DNA of 64,000 nucleotides from Cedecea davisae DSM 4568 (GTDB lineage: Bacteria; Pseudomonadota; Gammaproteobacteria; Enterobacterales; Enterobacteriaceae). This document shows, one piece after another, positions 51,024-63,713 of this stretch (the stretch's first letter is position 1; the number at the start of each line of letters is the position of its first letter). The notes under the pieces are model-generated. The model was not told the DNA's origin and did not search any database. It worked only from the letters and a program-made list of their open reading frames with translations. The stretch is from the NCBI RefSeq assembly GCF_000412335.2, contig NZ_KE161030.1:3487407-3551406 (forward strand), read 5' to 3'. A program made the position numbers and the translations under genes.

Positions 51024-51455
51024 CTACTCCACCGGTTTATCCGGCCAGTTAATATCCGGGGCATTAGAAACATCTACTGCTTCCAATGCATCCAGATAAT
51101 CAAGCCACAGATTATATTGCACAAGTTCATGGCTATTCAGACGGCCAATTGCTGCCTTACCTGGCCACTGTTTGCTATTAATATAAATATTAACGCAATC
51201 AACTTTGTACTTAATTTCATTTAGTGCAAGGTTAATCAATACCTCTTTACCTGGCGGAGGAATCTCTTTCCATTCCGGTAGTCCATCTTTCCCGGCAACC
51301 CGACACTTTCCCTCTGGTGGTGGGGCTGTATATTTCTCAAAATCTCCGCTGGATATATTCACTCCATCGGCAGGCCACCCACCTGCTAATTCATATGATT
51401 CCTGCAAAGACACAGGGTAAAATGCATTCTGTGACTTACTATATACATATATCAT
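51024..51455 (-). CDS. Tail fibre assembly protein (Tfa)
   Basis: A 143-residue chaperone needed to fold or trimerise the tail fibre tip. The N-terminus (MIYVYSKSQNAFYPVSLQE) and the C-terminal VDVSNAPDINWPDKP are characteristic. It is the last gene of the leftward tail operon, one base after the fibre gene. Base composition is visibly more AT-rich than the neighbouring tail genes, a usual sign of fibre-tip exchange between phages. Confidence 0.9.
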   Translation of the reverse strand: MIYVYSKSQNAFYPVSLQESYELAGGWPADGVNISSGDFEKYTAPPPEGKCRVAGKDGLPEWKEIPPPGKEVLINLALNEIKYKVDCVNIYINSKQWPGKAAIGRLNSHELVQYNLWLDYLDALEAVDVSNAPDINWPDKPVE

Positions 51456-51456
51456 T

Positions 51457-52116
51457 TTAACATCCTATTGCCAGCCAAAAACACCCCCAACCATCTACAG
51501 TATTGGAGGTTGAAAGGCTATTTGTTACGAGAAGTGTTACCTTATTTTTATCCATCCCTGAACTTGTTTTTACAACAAATGCTGGGCCAGCCGTAGTATT
51601 TTGAAATCCATGTATACCAGAAACACAAAATAAAGCTGTGGGGAATGGAATTGGAAACGTAACTGAAACAACCCCGTTGAGTACGACGTTATATCCCCAT
51701 TGTAAAATCAGCCCAGAGGGAAATCTCTGCCAACCATTTTGAGCCAGACTGGCTGATGTCGCCCCCAAACCAAGGTTTGCGAGAGCCGAAGAAACCGCAG
51801 CAGCACCGTCCGCTTTAATATCGGCGAAAGGGTTCTGGCGGCTGAGATACTGCTTGCCAAATCCGCCGGTGAGTTTTGCCAGGAATGCGGCAATATCACC
51901 GTCGTCCAATACATCCTGACCGCTTTTATCGCTCACAAACTGCGCCAGTGCGGCGGCGATAAACGAGGTTTGACGCAGGACTTTATTTACCTGAGCGCTG
52001 CTGGCCTTGCCTCCGGCAAAGCCGGTTAACAGCGCGGGTAAATCCTGCCACTCCTGCTGAGGCATGACGTTGGCGCCTGCCCCGGTTGCAAAGGGTTTAA
52101 AATCATTTGTAGCCAT
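51457..52116 (-). CDS. Short tail fibre protein
   Basis: A 220-residue fibre. The N-terminal part (MATNDFKPFATG, then a helical ALANLGLG stretch) attaches to the baseplate. The C-terminal part from about residue 130 (GWQRFPSGLILQWG) is a Gp53-type receptor-binding tip. It should decide which bacteria are bound. The start at 52116 overlaps the stop of the previous gene (TAATG). A Hin/Gin-like crossover core lies at the junction of the two parts. At 220 residues it is short for a fibre. Confidence 0.85.
   Translation of the reverse strand: MATNDFKPFATGAGANVMPQQEWQDLPALLTGFAGGKASSAQVNKVLRQTSFIAAALAQFVSDKSGQDVLDDGDIAAFLAKLTGGFGKQYLSRQNPFADIKADGAAAVSSALANLGLGATSASLAQNGWQRFPSGLILQWGYNVVLNGVVSVTFPIPFPTALFCVSGIHGFQNTTAGPAFVVKTSSGMDKNKVTLLVTNSLSTSNTVDGWGCFWLAIGC
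51760..51785. repeat. Hin/Gin-like crossover site inside the fibre gene
   Basis: The core AAACCAAGGTTT (51767-51778) is the palindromic heart of hix/gix/cix sites, including the central AA. It encodes the NLGL residues where fibre genes of Mu- and P1-type switching systems recombine. The outer bases match less well. No second copy is seen near the invertase relic. Confidence 0.6.
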
Positions 52117-52796
52117 TAAAGTTTCCTCTCCCATGCGCCGTCATCAAACCCGGCGATATAGTGATTGTTGATATCAAAACCAAAAAACTTACCGCCCTGC
52201 GACGGCGCTTCTACCGATGGAGTCTGAATGTCTCCCGCCCAAACCCCCGCTGCCTTTACCGTCAGGTAGCCCTGCTTAATGGCCGCAATGAGTTCGAGCG
52301 AGACGTTCGAGATATCCGTTTCCGGCAGGACCCATACAGAAATGGTCATGTCCTGGTTATCGACGATTTGCATTCTCAGGCCGGAGCCCGCCGTTGCTGC
52401 GTCGAGGATCGCGGGCAGCGTATCGTTCTGCCCGTTCCAGTTATTGATGGCGATTTTTGCTTTCAGAATGACTCGGTAAGTTTCGTCGCTCAGCGAGGTG
52501 TAGCCCGAGTCCGGATCGTAAGGTCCCTGCCACACGCCCTGGTCATAGCCCAGGCCGGTTGAGTCCCAGCTAAAGTAGACATTGGAAATGGGCTGGCTGA
52601 CGATGCGGCTGCGTCCAATCCATTGCCCAAGCGTGTCCAGCTGGGCGCCAACGCCGGTGTCGATGTCAAACGCGCTGACAAAGCTATCCACGCTGTTGGA
52701 CACATCAGTAAACGGGCGGGAACTCAGATCGACATGGGCAAAAAACAGAGGTTTGCTGGCGTGGTAGCTGGTAATTAGCTCGGTATATTTACTCAT
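52116..52796 (-). CDS. DUF2612 baseplate/tail protein (gpI-like)
   Basis: A 226-residue protein of the DUF2612 type, found between baseplate J-like and fibre genes in contractile tails. It likely links the fibre to the baseplate wedge. GAQLDTLGQWIGRSR near residue 50 is the conserved core. It overlaps the J-like gene by four bases and the fibre gene by one. Confidence 0.82.
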   Translation of the reverse strand: MSKYTELITSYHASKPLFFAHVDLSSRPFTDVSNSVDSFVSAFDIDTGVGAQLDTLGQWIGRSRIVSQPISNVYFSWDSTGLGYDQGVWQGPYDPDSGYTSLSDETYRVILKAKIAINNWNGQNDTLPAILDAATAGSGLRMQIVDNQDMTISVWVLPETDISNVSLELIAAIKQGYLTVKAAGVWAGDIQTPSVEAPSQGGKFFGFDINNHYIAGFDDGAWERKL

Positions 52797-62531: not shown

Positions 62532-63019
62532 TTTTTCCCCTCCTGCCAGTTGCAGACCTGGTATTCCACCTCGCGGCGGTTAACGAGCCCCCGCCACTGC
62601 CTGCCCCCGGCCAGCGTCCAACTTTTCAGCCCGGCACAAGCCTGCGTGTAGTCACCGGCGTTTAAAGCCCGCAGCAGAGACGAGCGCAGAAAAGCGGCGG
62701 TGCCTACGTTGTAGGTAAAGCTAATCAGCGCCGCTTTCTGGTATTCGTTAACGGGAACCTTTATTGCCTGCTCTACTGCGCGAGCGGCGGGCTGCAAATC
62801 TCTATCAAGCAGCGTTTTGCATTCAGCGGGGGAATAGGTTTTAGCGGGAGAGATGTCTTTCCCGGTATGCCCGTAGCAAACGGTAAGCACGCCCGCCACG
62901 TCGTAGTAAGGCGTATAACGTACGCCCTCAAGCTCGGGCAGCATCACGCTGGCTATCGTCAGAGCGCCCGCCCCCGATAAACCCAAAAGTGCCTTTCTCA
63001 GTCCGGGAGAGAGAGCCAT
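62528..63019 (-). CDS. SAR endolysin (GH24 lysozyme)
   Basis: A 163-residue T4-like muramidase. The catalytic Glu31, Asp40 and Thr46 have the exact E-8-D-5-T spacing. A weakly hydrophobic, glycine/alanine-rich N-terminal segment (about 10-27) fits a signal-arrest-release anchor, keeping the enzyme inactive until the holin collapses the membrane potential. Overlaps the holin gene by one base. Confidence 0.93.
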   Translation of the reverse strand: MALSPGLRKALLGLSGAGALTIASVMLPELEGVRYTPYYDVAGVLTVCYGHTGKDISPAKTYSPAECKTLLDRDLQPAARAVEQAIKVPVNEYQKAALISFTYNVGTAAFLRSSLLRALNAGDYTQACAGLKSWTLAGGRQWRGLVNRREVEYQVCNWQEGKK

Positions 63020-63318
63020 TAATTACCTGCCTTTTTCACTACCTCGCTGACTGCCCTGATAATTTCAATCTGCTCGGCTCGGTTAAGGGTATGCAAGTCA
63101 TCCACCAGCGCCTGGAGGATGCGGGTGCGCTTCTGGTCTTCAAGATGCTGGCGGTGCGCGTCCAGCCTGCCGCCCAGCCACGAAGCTATTGAAATCAGTA
63201 CACTCATCAGCCCGAATATCATGTAGACCATATCCTGTGTCGTGATACCCAGACCGGCGGCAAGCGCCGCAAGCCACGCAGAACATTGCGTGACCAGATT
63301 CGCTGGTTGGTCATTCAT
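63019..63318 (-). CDS. Holin
   Basis: A 99-residue protein with two hydrophobic segments (about 7-25 and 30-50) and a charged, helical C-terminus, fitting a class II or related holin. It sets the time of lysis. Position directly before the endolysin supports the call; the exact holin family is uncertain. Confidence 0.8.
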   Translation of the reverse strand: MNDQPANLVTQCSAWLAALAAGLGITTQDMVYMIFGLMSVLISIASWLGGRLDAHRQHLEDQKRTRILQALVDDLHTLNRAEQIEIIRAVSEVVKKAGN

Positions 63319-63377
63319 GGGGGTAAACCTTCGGTTGAAGTGTCGAACTACTGGACAAGTAAGGATGAAATGCGGAG

Positions 63378-63713
63378 TTAAATAAGCGCTATTGATTTGC
63401 CGCGCCGGGTTTGCTTCCCGGTCGCGCTCGGTAAACCGGCCTCATTAGCGGGGCCAGCCTGATAAAGTTTTCTTTGTTTCGCATCCAGCTGATTGCGCAG
63501 TAGCTGGTAATGCTCCGCCTGCTGGATGATATGCAGGCCGTAAATGTTAATCACCTCCAGCGCCTTATCGGGGCGGCTGCCGGGCTTGCGATTTAAAGTG
63601 AGAATGGGTCGCGCATCGGGTTTTGCCCTCACCCCCACCAGAAGCGGGTTTGCGGCTTTCCAGACGGCCTGCTTTGCCTCGCGCCGCTGGCGGCGACGTG
63701 TCTGTGCGTCCAT
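63378..63713 (-). CDS. Basic phage-type protein of unknown function, first gene of the tail locus
   Basis: A 111-residue protein with a strongly basic N-terminus (MDAQTRRRQRREAKQAVWK) and basic patches throughout. It resembles small proteins from lambdoid and related prophages without a defined role. The start at 63713 has AGGAGG four bases upstream, a very strong signal; the ATG five codons up lies in front of that signal and is unlikely. As first gene of an operon with internal terminators, it could be an RNA- or DNA-binding activator or antiterminator; this is inference. Confidence 0.6.
   Translation of the reverse strand: MDAQTRRRQRREAKQAVWKAANPLLVGVRAKPDARPILTLNRKPGSRPDKALEVINIYGLHIIQQAEHYQLLRNQLDAKQRKLYQAGPANEAGLPSATGKQTRRGKSIALI

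Follow-up and report, generated by a model that had tools for sequence, protein, structure and literature searches.

Gene content and boundaries of the locus

The window analysed here, 64,000 nucleotides of the Cedecea davisae DSM 4568 genome (G000:C1:3487407-3551406; genome of 4.89 Mb in three contigs), contains lysis and contractile-tail genes that belong to an insert of 14,310 bp between two core genes, from the end of yfhH (50772) to the start of yfhL (65083). Every recognised complete gene of the insert reads leftward (repressor, N, holin, lysozyme, Rz, lipase, tail terminator and on to Tfa). An earlier, sequence-only reading had proposed lysis cassette, lipase and tail genes in this order on one strand, and all of them are indeed present on the minus strand, nearly all by Pfam or PHROGs matches. 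The contractile tail set is complete (sheath, tube, tape measure, baseplate, spike and fibre), with the lysis genes linked to it. We argue that the insert is very probably a domesticated R-type tailocin operon of Cedecea with a DUF3383-type tail, known here from sequence. Its boundaries, tail body and lysis genes are as follows; the control region, lipase, fibre end and tape measure are listed in their own sections.

49885..50772, plus strand: yfhH, RpiR/SIS regulator, left core boundary (PF01418 and PF01380)
52116..52796, minus strand: DUF2612 baseplate/fibre-connector protein (PF11041)
52793..53992, minus strand: baseplate J-like protein (PF04865)
53993..54343, minus strand: baseplate wedge (phrog_120)
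54340..55104, minus strand: central spike, PF18352 N-terminal domain and apex motif (PF18352, PF18946)
55061..56068, minus strand: baseplate hub (PF22759, E 1.7e-5, just below the curated cut-off)
56078..56386, minus strand: Pam3 gp18-like baseplate plug (PF22479)
56396..56971, minus strand: Dit-like tail protein (PF21821)
58552..58965, minus strand: tail assembly chaperone (PF21822)
58969..59409, minus strand: tail tube, called DUF3277 in the earlier reading (PF11681)
59420..60559, minus strand: tail sheath, DUF3383 (PF11863, E 1.3e-113)
60563..61102, minus strand: tail terminator (PF23961)
62079..62531, minus strand: Rz inner spanin (PF03245)
62120..62323, minus strand: probable Rz1 outer spanin, a nested 67-residue open reading frame (lipobox by eye)
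62528..63019, minus strand: lysozyme-type endolysin (PF00959)
63019..63318, minus strand: holin (phrog_1350; no Pfam match)
65083..65343 (L002 3490-3750): yfhL, right core boundary, outside the window

The whole yfhH-yfhL interval was read, and no capsid, portal, terminase or integrase family is among the matches of its scanned proteins, in agreement with the earlier claim that these genes are missing. Moreover, gene spacing is so tight across the insert that there is no room for a head module. In PHROGs, the 'head and packaging' category does include two baseplate-type proteins (phrog_587 and phrog_349), listed there as structural proteins of unspecified kind. To the right of position 64000, where head or integrase genes would have pointed to a prophage, there is only the phage-type repressor (64071-64817), followed by yfhL, acpS, pdxJ, recO, era, rnc, lepB and lepA, core genes whose names were assigned by eye from the translations. 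A prophage extending rightward beyond the window is therefore rejected, as is a complete prophage, neither capsid, terminase nor integrase having been found. Insertion at a tRNA gene is likewise rejected, since ARAGORN finds none in the window and none in 17 kb to its right. The tail is unlike that of the P2-like R-pyocins, as the earlier reading had it: the sheath belongs to DUF3383 and the tube to PF11681, no other family appears among their matches, and a P2-like tail is thus rejected.

The control region

The genes for lysis are preceded by a region, partly outside the window, with the hallmarks of lambda-type control; three terminator-like hairpins lie further down the operon.

63378..63713, minus strand: antitermination protein N, lambda-type; the listed open reading frame extends to 63728 with a TTG start (PF11438, E 2.9e-16; PDB 6gov_N, E 3.6e-23)
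63783..63797, minus strand: nut boxB, GCCCTGAAAAAGGGC
63803..63813, minus strand: nut boxA, CGCTCCTTAAC
63854..63882, minus strand: putative operon promoter, by eye, TTGACT (63882-63877), 17 nt, CAATAT (63859-63854)
63859..63897, minus strand: two direct operator-like repeats over the promoter, 63883-63897 and 63859-63873, 24 bp apart
64071..64817 (L002 2478-3224), minus strand: S24/LexA-type repressor, outside the window (PF00717)
62060..62080, minus strand: intrinsic terminator-like hairpin T1, after Rz (8/8 Cedecea loci)
61120..61137, minus strand: intrinsic terminator-like hairpin T2, after the lipase (7/7 tail-bearing Cedecea loci)
55043..55062, minus strand: intrinsic terminator-like hairpin T3, at the hub/spike junction (same place in 6/6 other tail-bearing Cedecea loci)

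The N protein of the window matches solved lambda N chains, 6gov with the E value given above and the 36-mer peptide 1qfq with E 5.6e-11, and the N-terminal N36 region is present in it (PF11438). Twelve repressor-N spacers were compared, eight from Cedecea and four from the related N-type loci L056, L061, L062 and L072. The boxB is exact in ten of them and deviates at a single base in the other two, L056 and the Cedecea genome G001; the joint boxA-boxB pattern occurs once per genome in seven of the eight Cedecea genomes (the exception is again G001), and the reversed control never does. Both boxes lie between the promoter and the target genes, just upstream of N. The operator pair is found in 12/12 loci, and weaker sites occur upstream of or at the start of the repressor gene; the operator matrix was derived from these same promoter sites, which leaves only the upstream sites as independent, and chance matches number four in 29 kb of host DNA. 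The promoter TTGACT-17-CAATAT is not listed by a consensus promoter scan.

As the repressor carries an S24 peptidase domain, self-cleavage triggered by the SOS response is likely. Direct LexA control is unsupported, for a search of the 12 spacers with the LexA-box consensus gave one match, in the L062 insert only. The sequences of the T1-T3 hairpins differ among the Cedecea loci, and T3 was found by script in the other six and by scan in the window. A general scan lists 29 terminator-like sites on both strands, compared with 15.2 +/- 3.9 in shuffles, and T1 folds with a z-score of -3.15. Among the relatives, L056 and L061 have hairpins at other positions, L056 also at hub/spike. The locus is apparently under a lambda-type repressor and antitermination logic, under which the lysis genes would be transcribable without N and the tail genes would not.

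Presence across Cedecea and selection

The sheath is encoded in seven of the eight Cedecea genomes and yfhL in all eight. All seven sheath-bearing loci adjoin yfhL with a shared gene order, so the fixed site that the sequence-only reading had suggested comparing across related genomes is indeed found, in most of the species of the genus that were sampled. At the opposite end, yfhH is seen in 6/7 tail-bearing genomes; the contig of G002 ends inside the fibre gene. The remaining genome, G006, has repressor, N, holin, lysozyme, Rz and lipase, all with open frames, then yfhH after the lipase, and tail genes give no match there. A short stretch with a small possible open reading frame (L027 5600-6140, reverse strand) replaces the tail genes between lipase and yfhH in that genome.

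The genes of the locus are under purifying selection. Ratios of nonsynonymous to synonymous substitution rates (dN/dS) were computed by the Nei-Gojobori method (NG86) for the window against the other strains, with seven genomes, leaving out the noisy assembly of G001 (L017) and the tape measure and fibre of L015. Most values fall at 0.05-0.13 (repressor 0.06, N 0.13, lysozyme 0.09, lipase 0.05), those of the tail genes among them (sheath 0.06, tube 0.07, baseplate J 0.10). Higher ratios are seen for the wedge (0.22), the fibre (0.28) and Rz (0.35; part of its gene is also read in another frame). For the flanking yfhH and yfhL the ratios are 0.01-0.03. The dS of most operon genes is broadly like that of the flanks (yfhH 0.81, yfhL 0.97); the holin is lower (0.30), and lysozyme, Dit, the Pam3 gp18-like protein and hub are higher (1.4-1.8).

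Could the locus instead be a functionless, defective prophage in decay whose head genes were recently lost? The tail-less remnant in G006, the in-frame stop in one tape measure and the fibre end of the window, which looks like a deletion remnant itself, would all fit such an explanation. Open frames and low dN/dS throughout the genus, at a dS broadly like that of the flanks, argue against it, as do the same gene order beside yfhL in 7/8 genomes, with no integrase or head pieces remaining, and the occurrence of N-type relatives in C. sulfonylureivorans, Dryocola, Enterobacter sp. R1(2018) and a Buttiauxella bin. We regard recent decay as very unlikely.

Several observations nevertheless weigh against a maintained tailocin. 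The loss of the tail in G006 and the in-frame stop in the tape measure of G002 (C. neteri NBRC 105707) indicate that the weapon is dispensable in some strains. In G001, whose assembly looks noisy, boxB is altered and the reading frames of spike and hub are disturbed. For the window tape measure, dN/dS is not computable as dS is saturated. Finally, the folding z-scores of T2 (-1.50) and T3 (-1.84) are modest, and the scan finds no terminators in L062 and L072, which means that gating by terminators is not general in the N-type clade.

A model for the switch

How might a domesticated phage tail be kept silent and then fired? In the model that we favor, the S24 repressor would sit on the two operators over the operon promoter until DNA damage inactivates it. 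RNA polymerase would then start at the operon promoter and copy the nut site, and N would be made. Together with host Nus factors, N would load at boxA/boxB and allow polymerase to pass the terminators after Rz, after the lipase and at hub/spike, such that the tail genes would be expressed only when N is present. Contractile tails without heads would assemble, at a length set by the short tape measure; the cell would be burst by holin, lysozyme and spanins, and the particles would be freed along with the signal-less lipase. The fibre would decide the target of killing, and one fibre is left in this strain.

If this model is correct, here is a tailocin switched by lambda's own N/nut antitermination, to which decades of work on N, Nus and boxB become applicable. 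Tests of the control are feasible, given the nut and operator sites, the terminators and a strain that naturally lacks the tail. The N/nut switch had no place in the earlier reading, which also lacked the origin of the lipase, the remnant of an invertible cassette at the fibre end and the short tape-measure allele.

The lipase

61148..62029, minus strand: family I.1 lipase (PDB 6cl4, LipC12, 99% identical)

The lipase of the operon differs from LipC12 (PDB 6cl4) at 2 of 293 aligned residues (291 identical). LipC12 was published as an enzyme from a fosmid library of fat-contaminated soil, an active family I.1 lipase that needs no foldase and has no signal peptide (PMC3161859). The word 'phage' has no occurrence in the main text of that paper, where the place of LipC12 in a tailocin operon thus appears to be unreported. 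The Cedecea locus is the likely natural context of this enzyme, which is used in enzymology, and suggests a release of enzyme coupled to lysis.

In all eight Cedecea genomes, the tail-less G006 included, the lipase is single-copy, lies within the operon and is linked to the lysis cassette; in 7/7 tail-bearing loci its gene stands between the lysis and tail genes. The N-type relatives L056, L061, L062 and L072 give no match to it. Across the order, 70 of 394 genomes have a match, and 13 loci from 13 non-Cedecea genomes, 43-78% identical, were compared. None of the 13, over the 14-18 kb examined, matches the tail, lysis or regulator proteins of the window, the head proteins of the prophage L018 (see below) or the invertase. 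With four matching phage records, the best at 43%, and none of these matches near the lipase in 0/13 non-Cedecea loci compared, the idea that the lipase is a common phage gene is rejected. We read the lipase as a host-type enzyme captured into the lysis operon.

Perhaps, then, the lysis operon of the tailocin exports an enzyme as well: a signal-less lipase, captured between two terminators, would be freed with the weapon by SOS-induced lysis (in G006, the lipase alone). We put this forward tentatively, as possible but somewhat doubtful. Phage-type lysis cassettes have been described that work as type 10 secretion systems through lysis (PMC10847048), and by analogy these would be the nearest precedent for the proposed release.

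Two other explanations give the lipase a larger part. In one, the locus is chiefly a module that secretes the lipase through lysis, in the manner of a type 10 secretion system, and the tail is a passenger. A lipase that has no signal peptide and is active as LipC12, is single-copy and always in the operon in 8/8 genomes (G006 among them) and has one of the lowest dN/dS values of the operon is what this would predict, but the tail genes are similarly constrained, the lipase-free N-type relatives retain the tail, and the single tail-less genome may be a recent loss; it is the least likely of the explanations considered here. In the other, the tail is an injector, like an extracellular contractile injection system (eCIS), that takes the lipase into target cells as its payload. 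The position of the gene between lysis and tail genes in every tail-bearing Cedecea locus speaks for such a payload. Yet the lipase is missing from the matches of the four N-type relatives and is kept in G006 without any tail gene match, it lies between its own terminators and does not adjoin the spike or tube genes, and no other payload gene was recognised; this too seems most improbable, slightly more so than prophage decay. The domesticated tailocin remains the preferred interpretation.

Other headless loci carry additional genes. In place of a lipase, the Buttiauxella metagenome bin (L062 3436-7319) has a gene for a 680-residue GDSL hydrolase, flanked by two copies of the promoter-nut region. 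Inside the lysis regions of other loci and of L062, unassigned genes without a Pfam match are found at L074 7150-8970 (606 residues), L062 7831-8376 (181 residues, lipoprotein-like), L078 7494-8003 (169 residues) and L078 8822-9376 (184 residues). These unassigned genes of L074, L062 and L078 are perhaps further cargo or immunity genes.

The fibre end

50876..51022, plus strand: remnant of a second, opposite tfa, C-terminal part only, 147 bp (Tfa-like C-terminus in translation)
51024..51455, minus strand: tail fibre assembly protein Tfa (PF02413, phrog_188)
51457..52134, minus strand: tail fibre (PF21882, phrog_11303)
51759..51786, no strand assigned: orphan DNA-invertase crossover-like site in the fibre gene, core AAACCAAGGTTT at 51767-51778

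Of the other six tail-bearing Cedecea genomes, five have two oppositely oriented fibre sets and a Hin/Gin-type invertase. The inverted second fibre is readable in four of these five, and the fifth has an unreadable segment there; in G002 the contig ends before the invertase position. The four readable loci (L012, L013, L014 and L016) each have a pair of oppositely directed fibre or part-fibre genes, with the invertase adjoining yfhH; the L012 copy of the invertase matches PF00239 and PF02796. Sites that match the orphan crossover site of the window bound the inverted segments in these relatives, and their second fibre/tfa genes share the orientation of the window's tfa remnant. The window itself has no invertase; a search of the genome turned up a single relative of the enzyme, 37% identical and 0.4 Mb distant. 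The fibre end of the window can thus be read as a deletion remnant of an invertible cassette that the relatives keep together with its invertase. With one fibre, an orphan site, a tfa remnant and no invertase, the fibre is probably locked.

In G001 (L017, about 975-2775) the invertase is present and about 1.8 kb of C-rich nonsense lies between two crossover sites. This stretch could be the product of mixed fibre orientations in the culture, or plain assembly error, the spike region being damaged as well.

The tape measure

56971..58398, minus strand: tape measure, short allele of 475 residues, without a wall-hydrolase domain (assigned by position and homology; no Pfam match)

Five other Cedecea tape measures have 591-603 residues, compared with 475 in the window; that of G002 is the short allele with an in-frame stop, and that of L015 was left out of the length comparison. 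An apparently clean gap between the N-type lengths (475-603 residues, 10 rows) and those of prophages (610-883 residues, 44 rows) was rejected, since a second way of picking open reading frames puts 4/49 prophage tape measures at 520-596 residues.

Domain content differs as well. The tape measure of the prophage L018 has an SLT transglycosylase domain, whereas that of the window has none. Among the prophage rows, SLT is found in 21/49 and a domain of RNNNPGN type, for which no Pfam name was returned and which presumably digests the cell wall, in 22/49, with neither in 6. Over 79 rows, one or the other domain is present in 43/49 prophages, 0/11 N-type loci and 8/19 other headless loci; no Pfam wall-hydrolase family is found in 29 headless tape measures. 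The eight non-N headless rows that keep the RNNNPGN-type domain are all from Photorhabdus, so that loss of a wall-hydrolase domain is not universal among headless loci. Losing wall digestion would fit a tail that no longer delivers DNA.

Comparison with known systems

The closest known systems are DUF3383-tailed temperate phages of the Enterobacterales; one of them, the prophage L018, has its tail module and gene order in common with the Cedecea locus. The Cedecea sheath is 63-69% identical to those of phages EKP1, YP3, Omnitron and PSTCR3, and 64% to that of L018. The prophage has head genes, while the tailocin has none, has a shorter tape measure without the transglycosylase domain and is sited at yfhL. 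L018 (G004:C1:4616000-4635500) is a prophage of the Cedecea genome G004 with terminase, portal and capsid genes by eye; as G004 also bears the tailocin, the two related elements coexist.

In lambda, Q serves the lysis and tail genes. The Cedecea N can be aligned along its full length to the lambda N chain of PDB 6gov, and with boxA/boxB just upstream it resembles the lambda arrangement. What differs is that no antiterminator other than N was recognised and that N directly precedes the lysis and tail genes.

R-pyocins are controlled by PrtN/PrtR. These and other P2-like tailocins such as BceTMilo share with the Cedecea locus the lysis genes and headless contractile tail, but their sheath and tube are P2-related (PMC5411513). 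In enterocoliticin of Yersinia enterocolitica, too, a headless contractile tail cluster is preceded by genes for a CI repressor and for antitermination, but the tail is Mu-like and the antiterminators are annotated as Q, not N (PMC13030884). Carotovoricin of Pectobacterium is, like the Cedecea element, single-copy, genus-wide, R-type and at a fixed site, with a conserved body and a variable tape measure and fibre locus, and has an invertase in only part of the strains (172/365; PMC13195805). It differs in its tolC/ybiB site and its P2 GpU family protein, and no N/nut switch is mentioned in the text consulted. Identity with carotovoricin is rejected, the Cedecea site being yfhH-yfhL and the tail families different, and the Cedecea sheath as query returned no Pectobacterium locus.

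Tailocins have been stated to have arisen independently many times (PMC12090994), so multiple origins as such are not new. As an R-type tailocin, the Cedecea locus appears distinct in its tail type, its N/nut control and its lipase. One open-access library yielded no paper on a tailocin in Cedecea, and in the available text of PMC8609362 the wording 'antitermination' occurs only in a reference title.

Relatives and the sheath tree

Sheath matches occur in 74 and N matches in 19 of the 392 genomes of a family sample. Among 77 named loci with a sheath relative, 50 have at least three out of ten head-region proteins of the L018 type, two short contigs have two, and the remaining 25 (12 from outside Photorhabdus, 13 from Photorhabdus) lack all ten; the ten proteins also fail to match the same-site loci L053-L055. 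The sheath tree was built from this one protein by a quick method with 81 rows, and tail modules may recombine; L053-L055 (from the same genomes as G005, G007 and G002) and the short contigs L106 and L115 were left out of the tree and the tape-measure counts. Eleven N-type headless rows form one clade (support of 98 in the Shimodaira-Hasegawa-like approximate likelihood ratio test, SH-aLRT), and the starred branches force at least four changes of head/headless label.

Outside the N-type clade, the six headless loci tested have antiterminator Q, with PF06530 as best match in five and second in L063. Erwinia phyllosphaerae L074 and G227 (L149) lie on the same yfhL side as Cedecea but branch elsewhere in the sheath tree; the bin L081 is located between yfhL and yfhH. 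By these matches, a second headless lineage, with Q as its predicted antiterminator, occupies the same chromosomal site. The tree and this second lineage are relevant to the question of how frequently, and at which sites, phage tails turn into weapons.

The 13 Photorhabdus loci (L087, L089-L092, L094-L096, L098-L100, L102 and L103) have the same tail type and no L018-type head match in the stretch examined, and antiterminator Q lies upstream in L087 (the sole one of the 13 examined); the 13 would seem to form a tailocin lineage of their own, widespread in that genus. Within the N-type clade itself, the sheath occurs in forms of 379-380 and 493 residues (L056 10001-11140 vs the sheath genes of L061, L062 and L072), a difference that would fit the gain or loss of an outer domain some 110 residues long.

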